Shown here piece after piece: positions 6,360 to 58,649 of a DNA stretch of 64,000 nt. Location: assembly GCF_014203325.1 (NCBI RefSeq), contig NZ_JACHIV010000001.1:1303501-1367500 (forward strand). The letters are read 5' to 3'. Below the pieces are notes generated by a model. It was not told the origin of the DNA, searched no databases, and saw nothing but the letters and a program-made list of their open reading frames with translations. The DNA comes from Saccharopolyspora gloriosae (lineage in GTDB: Bacteria; Actinomycetota; Actinomycetes; Mycobacteriales; Pseudonocardiaceae). Every line of letters starts with the position of its first letter. Positions within the stretch are counted from its first letter, which is position 1. The translations under genes were made by a program, and so were the position numbers.

Positions 6360-8114
6360 TCAGGGGCGGCTTTCGCGCCAGCGGTTGGTGATCGGCAGGC
6401 GCCGGTCGCGGCCGAAGGCCTTCAGCGTGATCTTGGTGCCCGGCGGGTACTGGCGGCGCTTGTACTCCGCCCCGTCGACCATCCGGATCACCCGCTCCAC
6501 GAGCTCCGCGTCGAACCCGTCCGCGACCAGGTCCGAGTAGTCCCGATCGCCCTCGACGTAGCCGTCCAGCACCGCGTCCAGCACGTCGTAGGGCGGCAGC
6601 GAGTCCTGGTCGGTCTGATCGGGCCGCAGCTCCGCCGATGGCACCTTCTCGATCGAGTTCTCCGGGATCGGCGGCACTTCGCCGAGCTTCTCCGCCTCCG
6701 CGTTGCGCCACCTCGCCAGTTCCCACACCAGCGTCTTCGGCACGTCCTTGATCGGCGCGAACCCGCCGACCGCGTCGCCGTAGATCGTGGAGTAGCCGAC
6801 CGCCAGCTCCGTCTTGTTCCCCGGCGCCAGCACCAGGTGACCGTGCTGGTTCGACATCGCCATCAACGTGATGCCCCGGCAGCGGGCCTGCACGTTCTCC
6901 TCCGCGAGCCCCGTCAAGCCCAGCGGCCCGACGAACGCCGCGACCATGTCCGCCACCGGACGCTCCTCGAAGTGGCAGCCCAACCGGCGGGCCAGCTCGG
7001 CCGCGTCCGACCGGGAGTGCTCCGAGGAGTAGTGCGACGGCATCGACACCCCGTGCAGCGCGTCCGGCCCCAGCGCGTCCGCGGCCAGCGCTGCGCACAC
7101 CGCCGAGTCGATGCCCCCGGAAAACCCGAACGTCACCGACCGGAAACCGTTCTTGTGCACGTAATCCCGCAAGCCCGTCACCAGCGCCGCCCAGGTCTCG
7201 GCGAGCTCCGGCAGCGGCTCCACGCCGGGCGGAGCGGGCAGCGGCTCGTAGGCGGGCAGCGGATCGGGCTGCAGCACCGTGCGCGTCACGTCGAACGCGG
7301 GCATCCGGATCCGGCCCGGCTGCTCCGGCACCGTCGTGGCCGTGTGCCCGCCGGCGGGCACGTCCACGTCCAGCACCAGCAGGTGCTCGGTGAACTGCGG
7401 CGCCCGCGCGAGCACCTCGCCGTCGGCGCCCATCACGATCGAATCGCCGTCGAAGACCAGGTCGTCCTGCGCGCCGACCATGTTCACGTACGCGATCGGC
7501 GCACCCGCCTCCGCGGCCCGGCGCGCCACCAGCGGAACCCGCACGTCGTCCTTGGAGCGCTCGTACGGCGAGGAGTTCACGCACACCACGAGGTCCACGC
7601 CGACCTGGCCCAGCGCGGCCACCGGGCCGCCGTTCTGCCAGATGTCCTCGCAGATCACCACGCCGATGTCCAGGCCGTGCAGCTTCACGATCGGCAGGTC
7701 GAAGCCCGGCGCGAAGTACCGCGCCTCGTCGAACACGCCGTAGTTCGGCAGGTGGTACTTGTCGTAGGTCGCCACGACCTCACCGCCGAACAGCAGCGAA
7801 GCCGAGTTGCGCACCCCTTCGTCGTCGCGGTCCAGGTGGCCCACCACGACCAGCGCGTCCCCGCACCCGGCTTCGCGCAGGTTCACCGCCAGCGCGTCGA
7901 TCGCGGCGCGGTTCGCCGCGGCGAACGACTTGCGCAGCGCCAAGTCCTCCACCGGGTATCCGGCGAGCACCGTTTCCGGGAAGGCGACCACGTGGGCGCC
8001 TTCCTGCACGGCCCTGCGGGTCCATTCCAGGACCATCGCCGTGTTCCCGGCGATGTCCCCGACGGTCGCGTTGACCTGGGCTAGAGCGAGGCGCAGCTGC
8101 GGCATGAACGTCAT
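6360..8114 (-). CDS. nadE: Glutamine-dependent NAD+ synthetase
   Basis: Makes NAD+ from deamido-NAD+ with glutamine as amide donor; cytosolic last step of NAD synthesis. The 584-residue protein has an amino-terminal nitrilase-type glutaminase with the Glu-Lys-Cys triad: Glu47 in AFPETVLAGYP, the Lys in YDKYHLPNYGVFDE and the Cys in GVVICEDIW. The carboxyl half is the ammonia-dependent synthetase with the P-loop SGGIDSAVCAAL and a terminal QYPPGTKIT segment. Its length matches the bacterial two-domain enzyme, shorter than the roughly 680-residue mycobacterial form. ATGs at 8114 and 8105 are both possible; neither has a strong ribosome site. It is divergent from the secreted peptidase gene, with a 74-bp shared promoter region. 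Confidence 0.96.
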   Translation of the reverse strand: MTFMPQLRLALAQVNATVGDIAGNTAMVLEWTRRAVQEGAHVVAFPETVLAGYPVEDLALRKSFAAANRAAIDALAVNLREAGCGDALVVVGHLDRDDEGVRNSASLLFGGEVVATYDKYHLPNYGVFDEARYFAPGFDLPIVKLHGLDIGVVICEDIWQNGGPVAALGQVGVDLVVCVNSSPYERSKDDVRVPLVARRAAEAGAPIAYVNMVGAQDDLVFDGDSIVMGADGEVLARAPQFTEHLLVLDVDVPAGGHTATTVPEQPGRIRMPAFDVTRTVLQPDPLPAYEPLPAPPGVEPLPELAETWAALVTGLRDYVHKNGFRSVTFGFSGGIDSAVCAALAADALGPDALHGVSMPSHYSSEHSRSDAAELARRLGCHFEERPVADMVAAFVGPLGLTGLAEENVQARCRGITLMAMSNQHGHLVLAPGNKTELAVGYSTIYGDAVGGFAPIKDVPKTLVWELARWRNAEAEKLGEVPPIPENSIEKVPSAELRPDQTDQDSLPPYDVLDAVLDGYVEGDRDYSDLVADGFDAELVERVIRMVDGAEYKRRQYPPGTKITLKAFGRDRRLPITNRWRESRP

Positions 8115-8188
8115 CTTCGCGCACGCGCCGGACGAAGTCCCACCGCCCGTGACGAAGCCGACGCCGAACGCGTGACACCATCCCCCGA

Positions 8189-9766
8189 ATGAGTCGCTTG
8201 CTGACCGCCGGATGCGCGCTGTTGCTGCTCAGCGGTGCTGCCGCCTGCGCCCCCTCGCCGTCGAGCGGACCGCTGCTGCAGCCGCGCACCGAGCGCAGCG
8301 GCCCGGCGGGCGCGGTCCCGGCCGGTCTGGAGGAGTTCTACGGCCAAGAGCTCGACTGGGGCCCGTGCGCGGAGTACGCCACCACCAGCGCCGACCAGGG
8401 CGTCTACCAGGACCGGACGCTGGAGTGCGCCCGGTTGCGCGTGCCGCTGGACTACGAGCGGCCGGAAGGCCGCCAGATCAACATCGGCGTGCTGCGCAAA
8501 CCGGCGACCGACCCGGACACCCGCATCGGCTCGCTGCTGATGAACCCCGGCGGCCCCGGCGCCTCCGGCATGAGCGCCGCCGCGAGCCTCGCCCCCACCT
8601 TGGAGCCCACCGACCTCGGTGAGCGCTTCGACCAGATCGGCTTCGACCCGCGCGGCATCGGCGCCAGCGAACCCGAGGTCCGCTGCCTCACCGACGAGGA
8701 GTGGGACGCCGACCGGCTCGACTCCGACGCCGACACCTCCCCGGAGGGCACCGCGCAGACCGAGCGGGAAGTGCGCGACTACACCGGCAAGTGCGTGCAG
8801 CGGACCGGCGAGGACGTGCTCGCCCACGTCGGCACCCGCGACGTCGTCCAGGACATGGACGTGCTGCGCTCCGCGCTCGGCGATCCGCAGCTGACCTACC
8901 TCGGCTACTCCTACGGCACCCGCATCGGCTCCGCGTACGCCGAGCGGTTCCCCGGCAACGTGCGGGCGATGATCCTCGACGGCGCCATCGACCCCGGCCA
9001 GGACGCCATCGAGCAGCAGGTCATGCAGGGCGCCGGCTTCCAGCGCGCCTTCGAGTCCTTCGCACGGTGGTGCGCCGGGCAGAACCAGTGCGCCCTCGGC
9101 GCCGACCCGTCACGGGCCGTCCCGGCGTTCCAGCGACTCGCCCGGCCGCTGCTGGAACACCCGGTGCCCGCGGGCGACCGGGAGCTCTCCTACACCGACG
9201 CCACGACCGCGGCCGTCCAAGCGCTCTACGCGCAGAGCATGTGGCCCGCGCTCAACACCGGCCTCGGTGAGCTCGCCCAGGGCCGCGGCACCGTGCTGCT
9301 GACCCTCGCCGACTCCTACTACGGCCGTGAGGCCAACGGCTCCTACAGCAACATCACCGACGCGTTCAACGCCGTGCGCTGCGTCGACGATCCGCGCGTC
9401 ACCGACCGCGCCGTGCTGCGCGAAGCGGACCGCCGCTACCGCGAGGCGGCGCCCTTCCTCGACGACGGCCTGCCCGCCAACAGCGCCATGGACATGTGCT
9501 CGTTCTGGCCCGTGCCGGTCACCGGCGACGCGGCCCAACCCCAGGTGCAGGGCCTGCCGCCCACCCTGGTGATCTCGACCACCGGCGACCCGGCCACGCC
9601 CTACGACGCGGGGGTCAACCTCGCGAAGGCGCTGCGCGGCAGGCTGCTCACCTTCGAAGGCACCCAGCACACCGCGTTCCTCCAGGGCAACTCGTGCGTG
9701 GACGACGCGGGCATCGACTACCTGACCGAGCTCGAACTGCCCGCGGACGGCACCCGGTGCAAGTGA
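8189..9766 (+). CDS. Secreted alpha/beta hydrolase, tripeptidyl aminopeptidase (TAP) family
   Basis: A 525-residue exported serine peptidase-like hydrolase, probably a lipoprotein: the signal ends LLLLSGAAAC, though Ala at -3 makes the lipobox atypical. The fold shows the oxyanion stretch NPGGPGASG, the DPRGIG turn, nucleophile Ser241 in GYSYG, the acid in TTGDPATP and the His in FEGTQHTAF. The carboxyl TAP-like domain is present. Relatives are Streptomyces SlpD/SlpE and mycobacterial CaeA (Rv2224c) with Rv2223c, whose genes sit beside glnA2 as here. It likely trims peptides or hydrolyses esters in the envelope. A paralogue starts at 62523. Confidence 0.9.
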   Translation: MSRLLTAGCALLLLSGAAACAPSPSSGPLLQPRTERSGPAGAVPAGLEEFYGQELDWGPCAEYATTSADQGVYQDRTLECARLRVPLDYERPEGRQINIGVLRKPATDPDTRIGSLLMNPGGPGASGMSAAASLAPTLEPTDLGERFDQIGFDPRGIGASEPEVRCLTDEEWDADRLDSDADTSPEGTAQTEREVRDYTGKCVQRTGEDVLAHVGTRDVVQDMDVLRSALGDPQLTYLGYSYGTRIGSAYAERFPGNVRAMILDGAIDPGQDAIEQQVMQGAGFQRAFESFARWCAGQNQCALGADPSRAVPAFQRLARPLLEHPVPAGDRELSYTDATTAAVQALYAQSMWPALNTGLGELAQGRGTVLLTLADSYYGREANGSYSNITDAFNAVRCVDDPRVTDRAVLREADRRYREAAPFLDDGLPANSAMDMCSFWPVPVTGDAAQPQVQGLPPTLVISTTGDPATPYDAGVNLAKALRGRLLTFEGTQHTAFLQGNSCVDDAGIDYLTELELPADGTRCK

Positions 9767-15559: not shown

Positions 15560-20403
<4,844 letters not shown>

Positions 20404-20490
20404 GGTGTCTGAGACAACAACTTTGGGTTGTTGATTTCTGAATAGGTTTCACCACGCGATTCACTGGGTGATGGTTGTGGTGTATGTGGT

Positions 20491-20609
20491 TTGTCGGTGG
20501 TTTTAGCGGAGCGGGGAACGCCCGGTCCCATTCCGAACCCGGAAGCTAAGCCCTCCAGCGCCGATGGTACTGCACTCGATAGGGTGTGGGAGAGTAGGAC
20601 ACCGCCGAC
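20491..20609 (+). rRNA. rrf: 5S ribosomal RNA
   Basis: About 119 bases, from TTGTCGGTGGTTTTAGCGGA to AGTAGGACACCGCCGACA, whose ends pair as helix I. The loop B/C stretch CCCATTCCGAACCCGGAAGC is standard. It follows 23S by about 110 bases. Confidence 0.95.
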
Positions 20610-20622
20610 AATACTCAACGGG

Positions 20623-36181: not shown

Positions 36182-36327
36182 GCGGAACCTCAGCGTCCTT
36201 CTCGCTGCGGGATCTTTTTCCCTAGTGGCTCCGCCACGAGGGAAAAAGCCGTCCTCGCGAGAAGGACGCTGAGAACCCGCGGGTGGTCGGCTTTGGGACG
36301 TGGGCTATGTGCTTCGCACATACAGGC
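36182..36327 (-). repeat. Dispersed structured intergenic element, copy A
   Basis: Minus-strand copy of the element also found near 53.1 and 58.5 kb. Outer stem CTCAGCGTCCTTCTCGC (36189-36205) pairs perfectly with 36257-36273 over 17 bp. Inner stem arms are 36214-36229 and 36233-36248 (CTTTTTCCCT-A-GTGGC). The internal loop reads ATCCCGCA and GAGGACGG on the minus strand. The separate small hairpin is TATGTGC-TTC-GCACATA (36306-36322). It lies downstream of the epimerase gene and before lipB, and contains no real gene. Confidence 0.85.
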
Positions 36328-36441
36328 ACGGCTACGCCGCAAGGCAGGCTTGCTTCGCCGCCCAAGGCACGGCTTCGCCGCAATGCACGGGGTTCGGTTG
36401 GGAGGGGCGGTGTTCGGCCGCAAGGCACGGCTTCGCCGTGG
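36323..36441 (-). repeat. Cluster of short GGCACGGC hairpin repeats
   Basis: Repeated units of the form GGCACGGCTTCGCCGCAA, each able to fold as CGGC-TT-GCCG-like hairpins, at about 36325, 36364 and 36421. The same cluster type follows copy C at 58.4 kb, so it travels with the element. Confidence 0.7.
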
Positions 36442-53011: not shown

Positions 53012-53167
53012 CCTGTCAGCGGCGGAGCCGCTGAGCAGTGACCAGCTTGAGCAAGACGACCATCGGCGGGTTCTCAGCGGTTTCCTCGTGAGGACAGCGA
53101 TTTCGCTGTGCAGGGGTGCTACATGAGAAATCGATCCCGCAGCGAGGAAGCCGCTGAGGTTCCGCTA
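53012..53167 (+). repeat. Dispersed structured intergenic element, copy B
   Basis: The most diverged copy. Small hairpin TCAGCGGC-GGA-GCCGCTGA (53016-53034). Outer stem CTCAGCGGTTTCCTCGT (53073-53089) pairs with 53142-53158 at all 17 positions, including two G-T pairs. Inner stem CGATTTC/GAAATCG (53098-53104 / 53127-53133). Internal loop GAGGACAG and ATCCCGCA unchanged from copy C. It lies between the DUF3043 stop and the aldo/keto reductase start. Confidence 0.82.
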
Positions 53168-53206
53168 AGCGACGGCTACTCAAGCCAAGCTCAAAAACAG
53201 CCTTGG

Positions 53207-58382: not shown

Positions 58383-58470
58383 AACCACCCCTCGCGGCCG
58401 AAGGCCGTGCCCGGCGGCGTAGCCGTGCCTTGGGCGGCGAAGCAAGCCTGCTTGGCGGCCGAAGGCCGTG
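58383..58470 (+). repeat. Cluster of short hairpin repeats beside copy C
   Basis: Three or more units of the GGCACGGC..GCCG type, read on the minus strand (GGCACGGCCTTCGGCCGC, GGCACGGCTACGCCGC, GGCACGGCCTTCGGCCGC), matching the cluster beside copy A. Confidence 0.7.
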
Positions 58471-58617
58471 CCTGTATTCGCGAAGCGAATAGCCCACGCA
58501 AGCAAGCCGACCACCGGCGGGTTCTCAGCGTCCTTCTCGCGAGGACAGCTTTTTCCCTCGTGGCGGAGCCACTCGGGAAAAAGATCCCGCAGCGAGAAGA
58601 ACGCTGAGGTTCCGCTA
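58471..58617 (+). repeat. Dispersed structured intergenic element, copy C
   Basis: Small hairpin TATTCGC-GAA-GCGAATA (58475-58491), linker ending GACCACCGGCGGGTT, outer stem CTCAGCGT-C-CTTCTCGC (58524-58540) paired with 58592-58608 (one C-A mismatch), internal loop GAGGACAG/ATCCCGCA, and inner stem CTTTTTCCC/GGGAAAAAG capped by GTGGC-GGA-GCCAC. It lies between the convergent M23 and asnB genes. The whole 58296-58649 gap is terminator plus this element. Confidence 0.87.
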
Positions 58618-58649
58618 CCCGGACACCAACACAAGCCGACCGGGGAATT

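Follow-up and report, generated by a model that had tools for sequence, protein, structure and literature searches.

The window, by which we mean the whole stretch of 64,000 nucleotides analysed here, holds three copies of an intergenic element. We call them A, B and C, and direct inspection of the sequence confirms them at the places where they had been predicted (Table 1). Copies B and C are each followed by a short tail, which runs to the stop codon of a minus-strand gene facing the element; the gene that faces copy C reads, by eye, as an asparagine synthetase. A ribosomal RNA operon (16S, 23S, 5S) is located at 15560-20610 of the same window.

Table 1. Parts of the three element copies in the window, with the basis of each assignment
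Feature	Position	Strand	Basis
Copy A, core double-stem hairpin	36182..36280	-	sequence and pattern match
Copy A, linker from small hairpin to core, has GACCACC	36281..36305	-	sequence; GACCACC conserved in the family
Copy A, proximal small hairpin, type I (TATGTGC GAA GCACATA)	36306..36322	-	sequence
Copy A, upstream mini-hairpin array, three matched units	36326..36439	-	pattern matches
Copy B, small hairpin, type II (CAGCGGC GGA GCCGCTG)	53017..53033	+	sequence
Copy B, linker	53034..53065	+	sequence; type II linkers aligned
Copy B, core hairpin, different inner stem (CGATTTC/GAAATCG)	53066..53165	+	sequence and pattern
Copy B, tail, to stop codon (53207) of facing minus-strand gene	53166..53206	+	sequence and gene call
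Copy C, upstream mini-hairpin array, three matched units	58394..58471	+	pattern matches
Copy C, proximal small hairpin, type I (TATTCGC GAA GCGAATA)	58475..58491	+	sequence
Copy C, linker, ending in GACCACCG	58492..58516	+	sequence
Copy C, core double-stem hairpin	58517..58615	+	sequence and pattern
Copy C, tail, to stop codon (58650) of facing minus-strand gene	58616..58649	+	sequence and gene call

The shared architecture that had been described for these copies is present in all three. Each core has a GCGG/CCGC clamp, a GTT/GTT loop, a stem of 17 positions, a second loop with GAGGACRG facing ATCCCGCA, and an inner stem with an inner hairpin. The window has exactly three matches to the loop pair GAGGACRG...GATCCCGC, compared with a mean of 0.01 in 100 shuffles, and on either strand the copies fold far better than their own shuffles (z from -4.7 to -8.9).

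One part of the original prediction, a single form of the small hairpin, has to be replaced by two forms: type I, which is found in copies A and C together with a one-sided array of mini-hairpins, and type II, found in copy B. In the genome to which the window belongs (G000), type II reads CAGCGGC-G[AG]A-GCCGCTG and type I is similar to TATTCGCGAAGCGAATA. Type I is the commonest form sampled there: 99 copies with full flanks comprised 66 of type I, 30 of type II and three of neither. These labels were made for G000, and neither fits 35 of 49 copies in G018 or 12 of 23 in G017. The mini-hairpins (GCGGC..GCCGTGC) accompany the cores: of the 136 found in 884 kb of G000, 130 have a core within 900 bp, and each of these 130 is placed upstream of that core and shares its strand. 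They form one-sided, head-to-tail arrays with 1-9 units in all 42 type I copies examined and are absent from 23 of 24 others. One array has a repeat period of 61 bp. In G018 we also observed close inverted pairs of whole copies, resembling REP dimers (L322:10589-10933, L324:16493-16789 and L317:1097-1428).

Family size, host range and covariation

The count of three copies stands for the 64-kb window but not for the genome. In G000 (6,825,909 bases in one contig) the loop pattern has 317 matches, 150 on the forward and 167 on the reverse strand, and the reversed pattern, used as control, has none. The same pattern matches in 304 of 397 genomes across the order, mostly few times per genome. Taken alone it is too loose to mark the family, and the matches listed have unrelated middles. 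The counts that stand out are those of G000 (317) and G018 (79), and more weakly those of G232 (19), G004 and G005 (16 each) and G019 (12). G232 belongs to another genus, and with a count above that of most genomes it may carry the element.

A covariance-model search, as the original prediction proposed, was run with a model (R1) built from G000 alone, and it places the element in nine genomes besides the window's own, all of the same family. Altogether R1 matched in 10 of 41 genomes, all Pseudonocardiaceae (10 of the 25 sampled from this family): the six sampled Saccharopolyspora (G000-G005) and G010, G017, G018 and G019. G017 may be S. erythraea NRRL 2338. The other 31 genomes, 15 within the family and 16 elsewhere in the order, gave no match in a search whose filters lose some weak ones. 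The number of matches is uneven between related genomes, being 7 in G019, 47 in G017, 118 in G018 and, at the upper end, at least as many as were scored. An 18-base word of the element found 68 stretches in public genomes, of which 60 come from Saccharopolyspora sp. NFXS83 (G001).

The statement that the element is not a named RNA family is supported by comparison with Rfam. At gathering scores the search of the whole window gave nothing at the copies, and copy C and one copy from G005, compared with E up to 10, gave only matches far below threshold. Copy C had no match in plasmid and phage collections, nor did a strict pattern in viral contigs. Among the literature matches listed, no title or abstract opening names such an element.

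How far does selection on pairing, first suggested from three copies, extend in the family? In 24 G000 copies, A, B and C included, pairing is kept in 99.2% of stem cells, compared with 93.5% after shuffling of the partners, and 11 of 35 pairs have changed on both sides. A larger set consisted of 103 copies from G005, G010, G017, G018 and G019, none of which had been used in the model; only matches with E <=1e-12 were kept, and 3 G003 sources out of 72 were left out to avoid reverse-strand duplicates. Here two-sided changes are found in 26 of 35 pairs, and 92.4% of cells pair; shuffling lowers this to 73.1%, and sliding the partners to 38-49%. The covariation score falls from 0.450 to 0.127 in shuffles (0/500) and to 0.05-0.09 with slid partners. 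Because the 103 copies were aligned to the model, and those from the same genome are related to one another, the figures lean to structure, but the slid controls lie far below them.

The loop bases behave in the opposite manner. At most positions of GTT, GAGGACAG and ATCCCGCA, 95-102 of the 103 copies have the same base, and one loop position is split between C (71 copies) and G (30 copies). From the counts of pairing, two-sided changes and loop bases in these 103 copies it follows that the stems vary and still pair, whereas the loops are kept by sequence. Selection on pairing is accordingly supported well past the three copies of the window, in an alignment that is model-fitted and made of related copies.

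Placement, replication polarity and turnover

The position of the copies relative to genes was evaluated with gene calls from our own simple script. After 4 of 142 copies without a called neighbour were dropped, 138 remained. Overlap with a called gene was seen in 1 of 49 copies in G018, in 0 of 23 in G017 and in 0 of 66 in G000, where the sample comprised the copies in 884 kb of stretches and in 3-kb loci partly chosen for their copies. A gene facing the element adjoins its tail end in 121 of the 138 copies; for 100 of these 121 the stop codon of that gene lies 25-62 nt away, many at about 40, while the distance from the other end of the element to a gene is very variable. Within the window the distance to the stop codon is 42 nt for copy B and 35 nt for copy C, and copy A is an exception to this placement. 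Of 54 copies in tandem gaps, 42 run antisense to both genes. Convergent gaps hold 78 of the 137 copies outside called genes; in these copy-rich stretches 761 gaps measure >=120 bp, and 148 of them are convergent. Location downstream of genes on either strand, as first described, holds for A, B and C, but across the family the tail end is usually close behind a stop codon and the element antisense to that gene. The same asymmetry is described for uni-REPs, which keep close to the 3' end of one neighbour, with a variable distance to the other (PMC3733652).

Orientation with respect to replication was scored in G005, G017, G018, G019 and G000 by a preset half-split of the chromosome; G010, which consists of draft contigs, was left out. 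The matches listed were 34 of 47 in G017 and 100 of 118 in G018. In both genomes the strand of the element switches between the chromosome halves, with agreement in 32 of the 34 listed copies and in 84 of the 100. In G017 and G018 the sign of the GC skew mostly reverses between the contig halves, consistent with an origin near the contig start. This polarity does not come from gene direction, because only 195 of 361 called genes in G017 and 217 of 362 in G018 lie on the leading strand and because convergent gaps keep the polarity (15 of 16 copies in G017, 23 of 28 in G018). Wherever copies are polar, it is their minus strand, of the same sense as the facing gene, that falls in the lagging-strand template.

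The polarity is not general. In G019 the agreement is 6 of 7, and in G005 it is 17 of 32, rising to 27 of 32 only with an arc that was fitted post hoc and so is no test. In G000 the half-split agrees for 23 of 30 type II copies and 29 of 66 type I copies, and in convergent gaps for 6 of 9 and 11 of 24, respectively. Polarity is absent from type I in this genome.

Two kinds of evidence bear on the acting strand, and they lean in opposite directions. On the plus strand, the outer stem has 69 G-T pairs against 14 A-C pairs; collapsed to distinct genome-pair-type events, the numbers are 25 and 12 (p 0.047). For both stems in G000 they are 15 and 7, divided into 10 and 2 for type I and 5 and 5 for type II. 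This wobble bias leans weakly to the plus strand. The minus strand carries GT[AG]G at the foot of the stem in 92 of 103 copies and in 86 of 97 from G000; the last G of this motif already takes part in the first pair of the stem, and this DNA abounds in G-rich words. Together with the replication polarity, this tag points to the minus strand.

A search for the enzyme that might move the element covered the ten element-bearing genomes. Y1_Tnp (PF01797) was found in G004, G005, G010 and G017 and was not found in G000, G001, G002, G003, G018 and G019, two of which, G000 and G018, are among the richest in copies. RVT_1 was found only in G001 and G017 and not in the other eight. By these models, therefore, neither the standard REP transposase nor a reverse transcriptase is a common feature of the hosts. 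The mobilising enzyme may be a very divergent Y1 protein or reverse transcriptase, or a DDE transposase.

It is possible to follow individual sites between close relatives. Synteny between G000 and G002, with aligned blocks about 90.5% identical, covers 22 of 26 G000 copies in the stretch compared. At these 22 sites G002 has a copy in the same orientation in 10 cases, a weak remnant in 2, a copy in the gap in 4 (3 of them reversed) and none in 6. At 9 of the 10 shared sites the stems differ between the two genomes, with arms matched in 8 of 10 copies of G000 and 9 of 10 of G002, and most of these sites show only a small number of base differences elsewhere in the core. A few discrete stem types are seen repeatedly within each genome. 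Because shared sites carry different matched stems while the remainder of the core is alike, and because stem types recur, conversion between copies is likely, acting on top of the pairing constraint. In G001, the nearest relative, detailed comparison of two copies reveals a shared copy that has decayed or undergone an internal deletion, not fresh insertion.

Several single sites deserve mention. At G000 position 1754305 and in NFXS83 (L131:2949-3046) the same intergenic site carries the element in opposite orientation, and G002 has none there. At the site of copy C in G002 (L187, about 7071-8503) the orthologous copy is interrupted by an insertion sequence, which reads like an IS481-type integrase by eye and has GCTACC on both sides. 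As clean empty sites, those in G002 are too diverged for exact boundaries, and the one candidate from G004/G005 lies at a contig end. Comparison of G000 sites with those of G002 and G001, too diverged for exact boundaries, gave no clear target-site duplication. Chimeric stems seen in NFXS83 were set aside as possible assembly errors.

Origin of the copies

The original prediction left three options for the element: a structured RNA, a 3'-end processing or attenuation signal, or a small mobile hairpin. The last of them is favoured by the number of copies, by their turnover between related species, by their polarity relative to replication and by a placement like that of REPs. We propose, with moderate confidence, that the copies represent a REP-like non-autonomous family of mobile hairpins of the Pseudonocardiaceae, copied near replication forks by a putative enzyme. 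Against this reading stand the length of the core, which at 99 nt exceeds the stem-loops described for REPs, the searches for a mobilising gene, which found none, the site comparisons, which gave neither a target-site duplication nor an exact insertion boundary, the wobble pairs that lean to the plus strand, and a polarity that is not general.

The mechanism may be imagined as follows. The element would be recognised as a folded single strand by an enzyme acting in trans, which would read the constant unpaired bases, namely GTT/GTT, GAGGACRG/ATCCCGCA and the GT[AG] directly 5' of the minus-strand stem. The stems would need only to pair, leaving them free to drift and to be exchanged between copies. 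Transposition would bring new copies to the forks, where the lagging-strand template is single-stranded, and they would settle in it right after the stop codon of a gene on the leading strand; the orientation to both replication and gene would follow from this. Settled copies would persist as extragenic hairpins at 3' ends and then decay. In the Saccharopolyspora clade, type I would have lost its polarity rather than never having it. A bolder version, which we regard as doubtful though worth stating, makes of these copies a new Actinobacteria class of replication-polar mobile hairpin, in which a folded strand with two large constant loops would be copied behind stop codons at forks by a putative enzyme neither known Y1 nor reverse transcriptase, with one lineage building one-sided, growing arrays.

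Could the hairpins act instead in transcripts, as bidirectional terminators, decay barriers or processing signals selected at each locus, with dispersal only secondary? Placement close behind stop codons, enrichment in convergent gaps, very stable folds on both strands and the excess of G-T over A-C pairs on the plus strand all agree with such 3'-end elements. We nevertheless consider this explanation rather unlikely. Among 97 G000 copies a U-tract follows the hairpin in 0 on the plus and 7 on the minus strand, which argues against an intrinsic terminator; G002 lacks several of the copies at the corresponding orthologous sites; copies in tandem gaps are mostly antisense to both genes; and the polarity of G017 and G018 persists in the control free of gene direction, which transcription alone does not predict. 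It is less probable again that the covariation arose without any selection for pairing, through quasi-palindrome correction or gene conversion that keeps the arms complementary and spreads stem types. The different stems with matched arms at orthologous sites of G000 and G002 are what such processes could leave, and conversion would give just such a small set of discrete stem types recurring per genome. However, the internal loops are constant and non-complementary in five genomes, so that pairing alone is not what is conserved. Correction on a duplex template does not predict the one-strand excess of G-T over A-C pairs, weak as this is once collapsed, and conversion leaves unexplained how new sites are reached.

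The strong orientation in G017 and G018, independent of gene direction, would also suit a polar function of the chromosome itself, in which the hairpins serve the lagging-strand side of forks, for example as sites of single-strand priming or fork handling. We find this very improbable given the uneven copy number among relatives, the 15 of 25 sampled family genomes with no R1 match, the type I copies of G000 that have no polarity, and the stop-codon placement, which it does not explain. The least probable explanation in our estimation is a classical MITE belonging to a DDE insertion sequence, or else a retroelement that a reverse transcriptase of group II type has spread. MITEs have such size and copy number, group II introns prefer the lagging strand, and some copies have a motif like CCTGTCTTTGATC at both outer ends. 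Terminal inverted repeats are unsupported, since the ends of a copy pair with each other no better than swapped ends do (mean 6.39 for own vs 6.33 for swapped ends in G017, 5.98 vs 5.95 in G018, and 6.73 vs 6.49 in type II of G000). This explanation is further weakened by the lack of a clear target duplication, by the eight of ten hosts in which RVT_1 was not found, and by the Rfam search of the window, in which no group II intron family reached gathering score.

Comparison with known systems

The element is of interest as a large, well-conserved repeat family in antibiotic producers. Its polarity and stop-codon placement make the spread of REP-type hairpins testable in hosts where the REP transposase was not detected. 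It may also confound short-read assembly, as well as RNA-structure screens, because the covariation here arises in a repeat and not in an orthologous RNA gene.

Several known systems share part of these features. The attC sites of integrons have variable stems and conserved unpaired bases, as the element does, but the element is dispersed over the chromosome with no cassette array, and by eye it has no R'/L' boxes. ERIC, BOX, RUP and further MITE-like sequences of bacteria are imperfect palindromes of about 100-150 bp dispersed between genes. The element is similar to them in size and intergenic dispersal, and different in that no target duplication was found and terminal inverted repeats have no support. 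Group IIC introns settle behind genes with a lagging-strand bias, and this behaviour is shared; yet no Rfam intron matches at gathering score in the window, and no reverse transcriptase was detected in eight of ten hosts.

The ends of IS200/IS605 and their non-autonomous derivatives come closer. According to the account in PMC6006769, IS200/IS605 hairpins are recognised as folded single strands, with a preference for the lagging-strand template. The element, in contrast, has no internal gene, and Y1 was not detected in several of its hosts.

The nearest parallel is with REP/REPIN sequences and their TnpA-REP (RAYT) enzymes. As these are presented in PMC3733652, PMC6006769 and PMC8266576, the shared features are many intergenic palindromes, subfamilies with alternative complementary residues in the stems, irregular stem bases, location near the 3' end of one gene, clustered hairpin units and, in part, a GT[AG]G motif on one strand at the stem foot. 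The REP tag is given as GTAG/GTGG, lying on one strand and 0-2 nt 5' of the stem (PMC6006769), whereas here the last G of the tag is paired. A REP is a short stem-loop of 20-40 bp with a basal stem of 7-20 nt and a bulge of 1-3 nt, while the element has a 99-nt core with two large constant internal loops, the loops of 8 nt being on both sides, and Y1 was not detected in six of its ten hosts. Repeats with GTAG are reported in PMC3733652 from Proteobacteria, Cyanobacteria, Chloroflexi and the PVC group, and, under a looser definition, REP-like palindromes were also counted in Actinomycetota, in three genomes from outside Saccharopolyspora (PMC12306157). We do not claim membership of the REP family, because the size of the element and the hosts in which no cognate transposase was found argue against it, and there is a real chance that it forms a separate class. 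By analogy, the element would work partly in the manner of a REP: its placement, copy number and covarying subfamilies agree with those of REPs, and its tag agrees in part.
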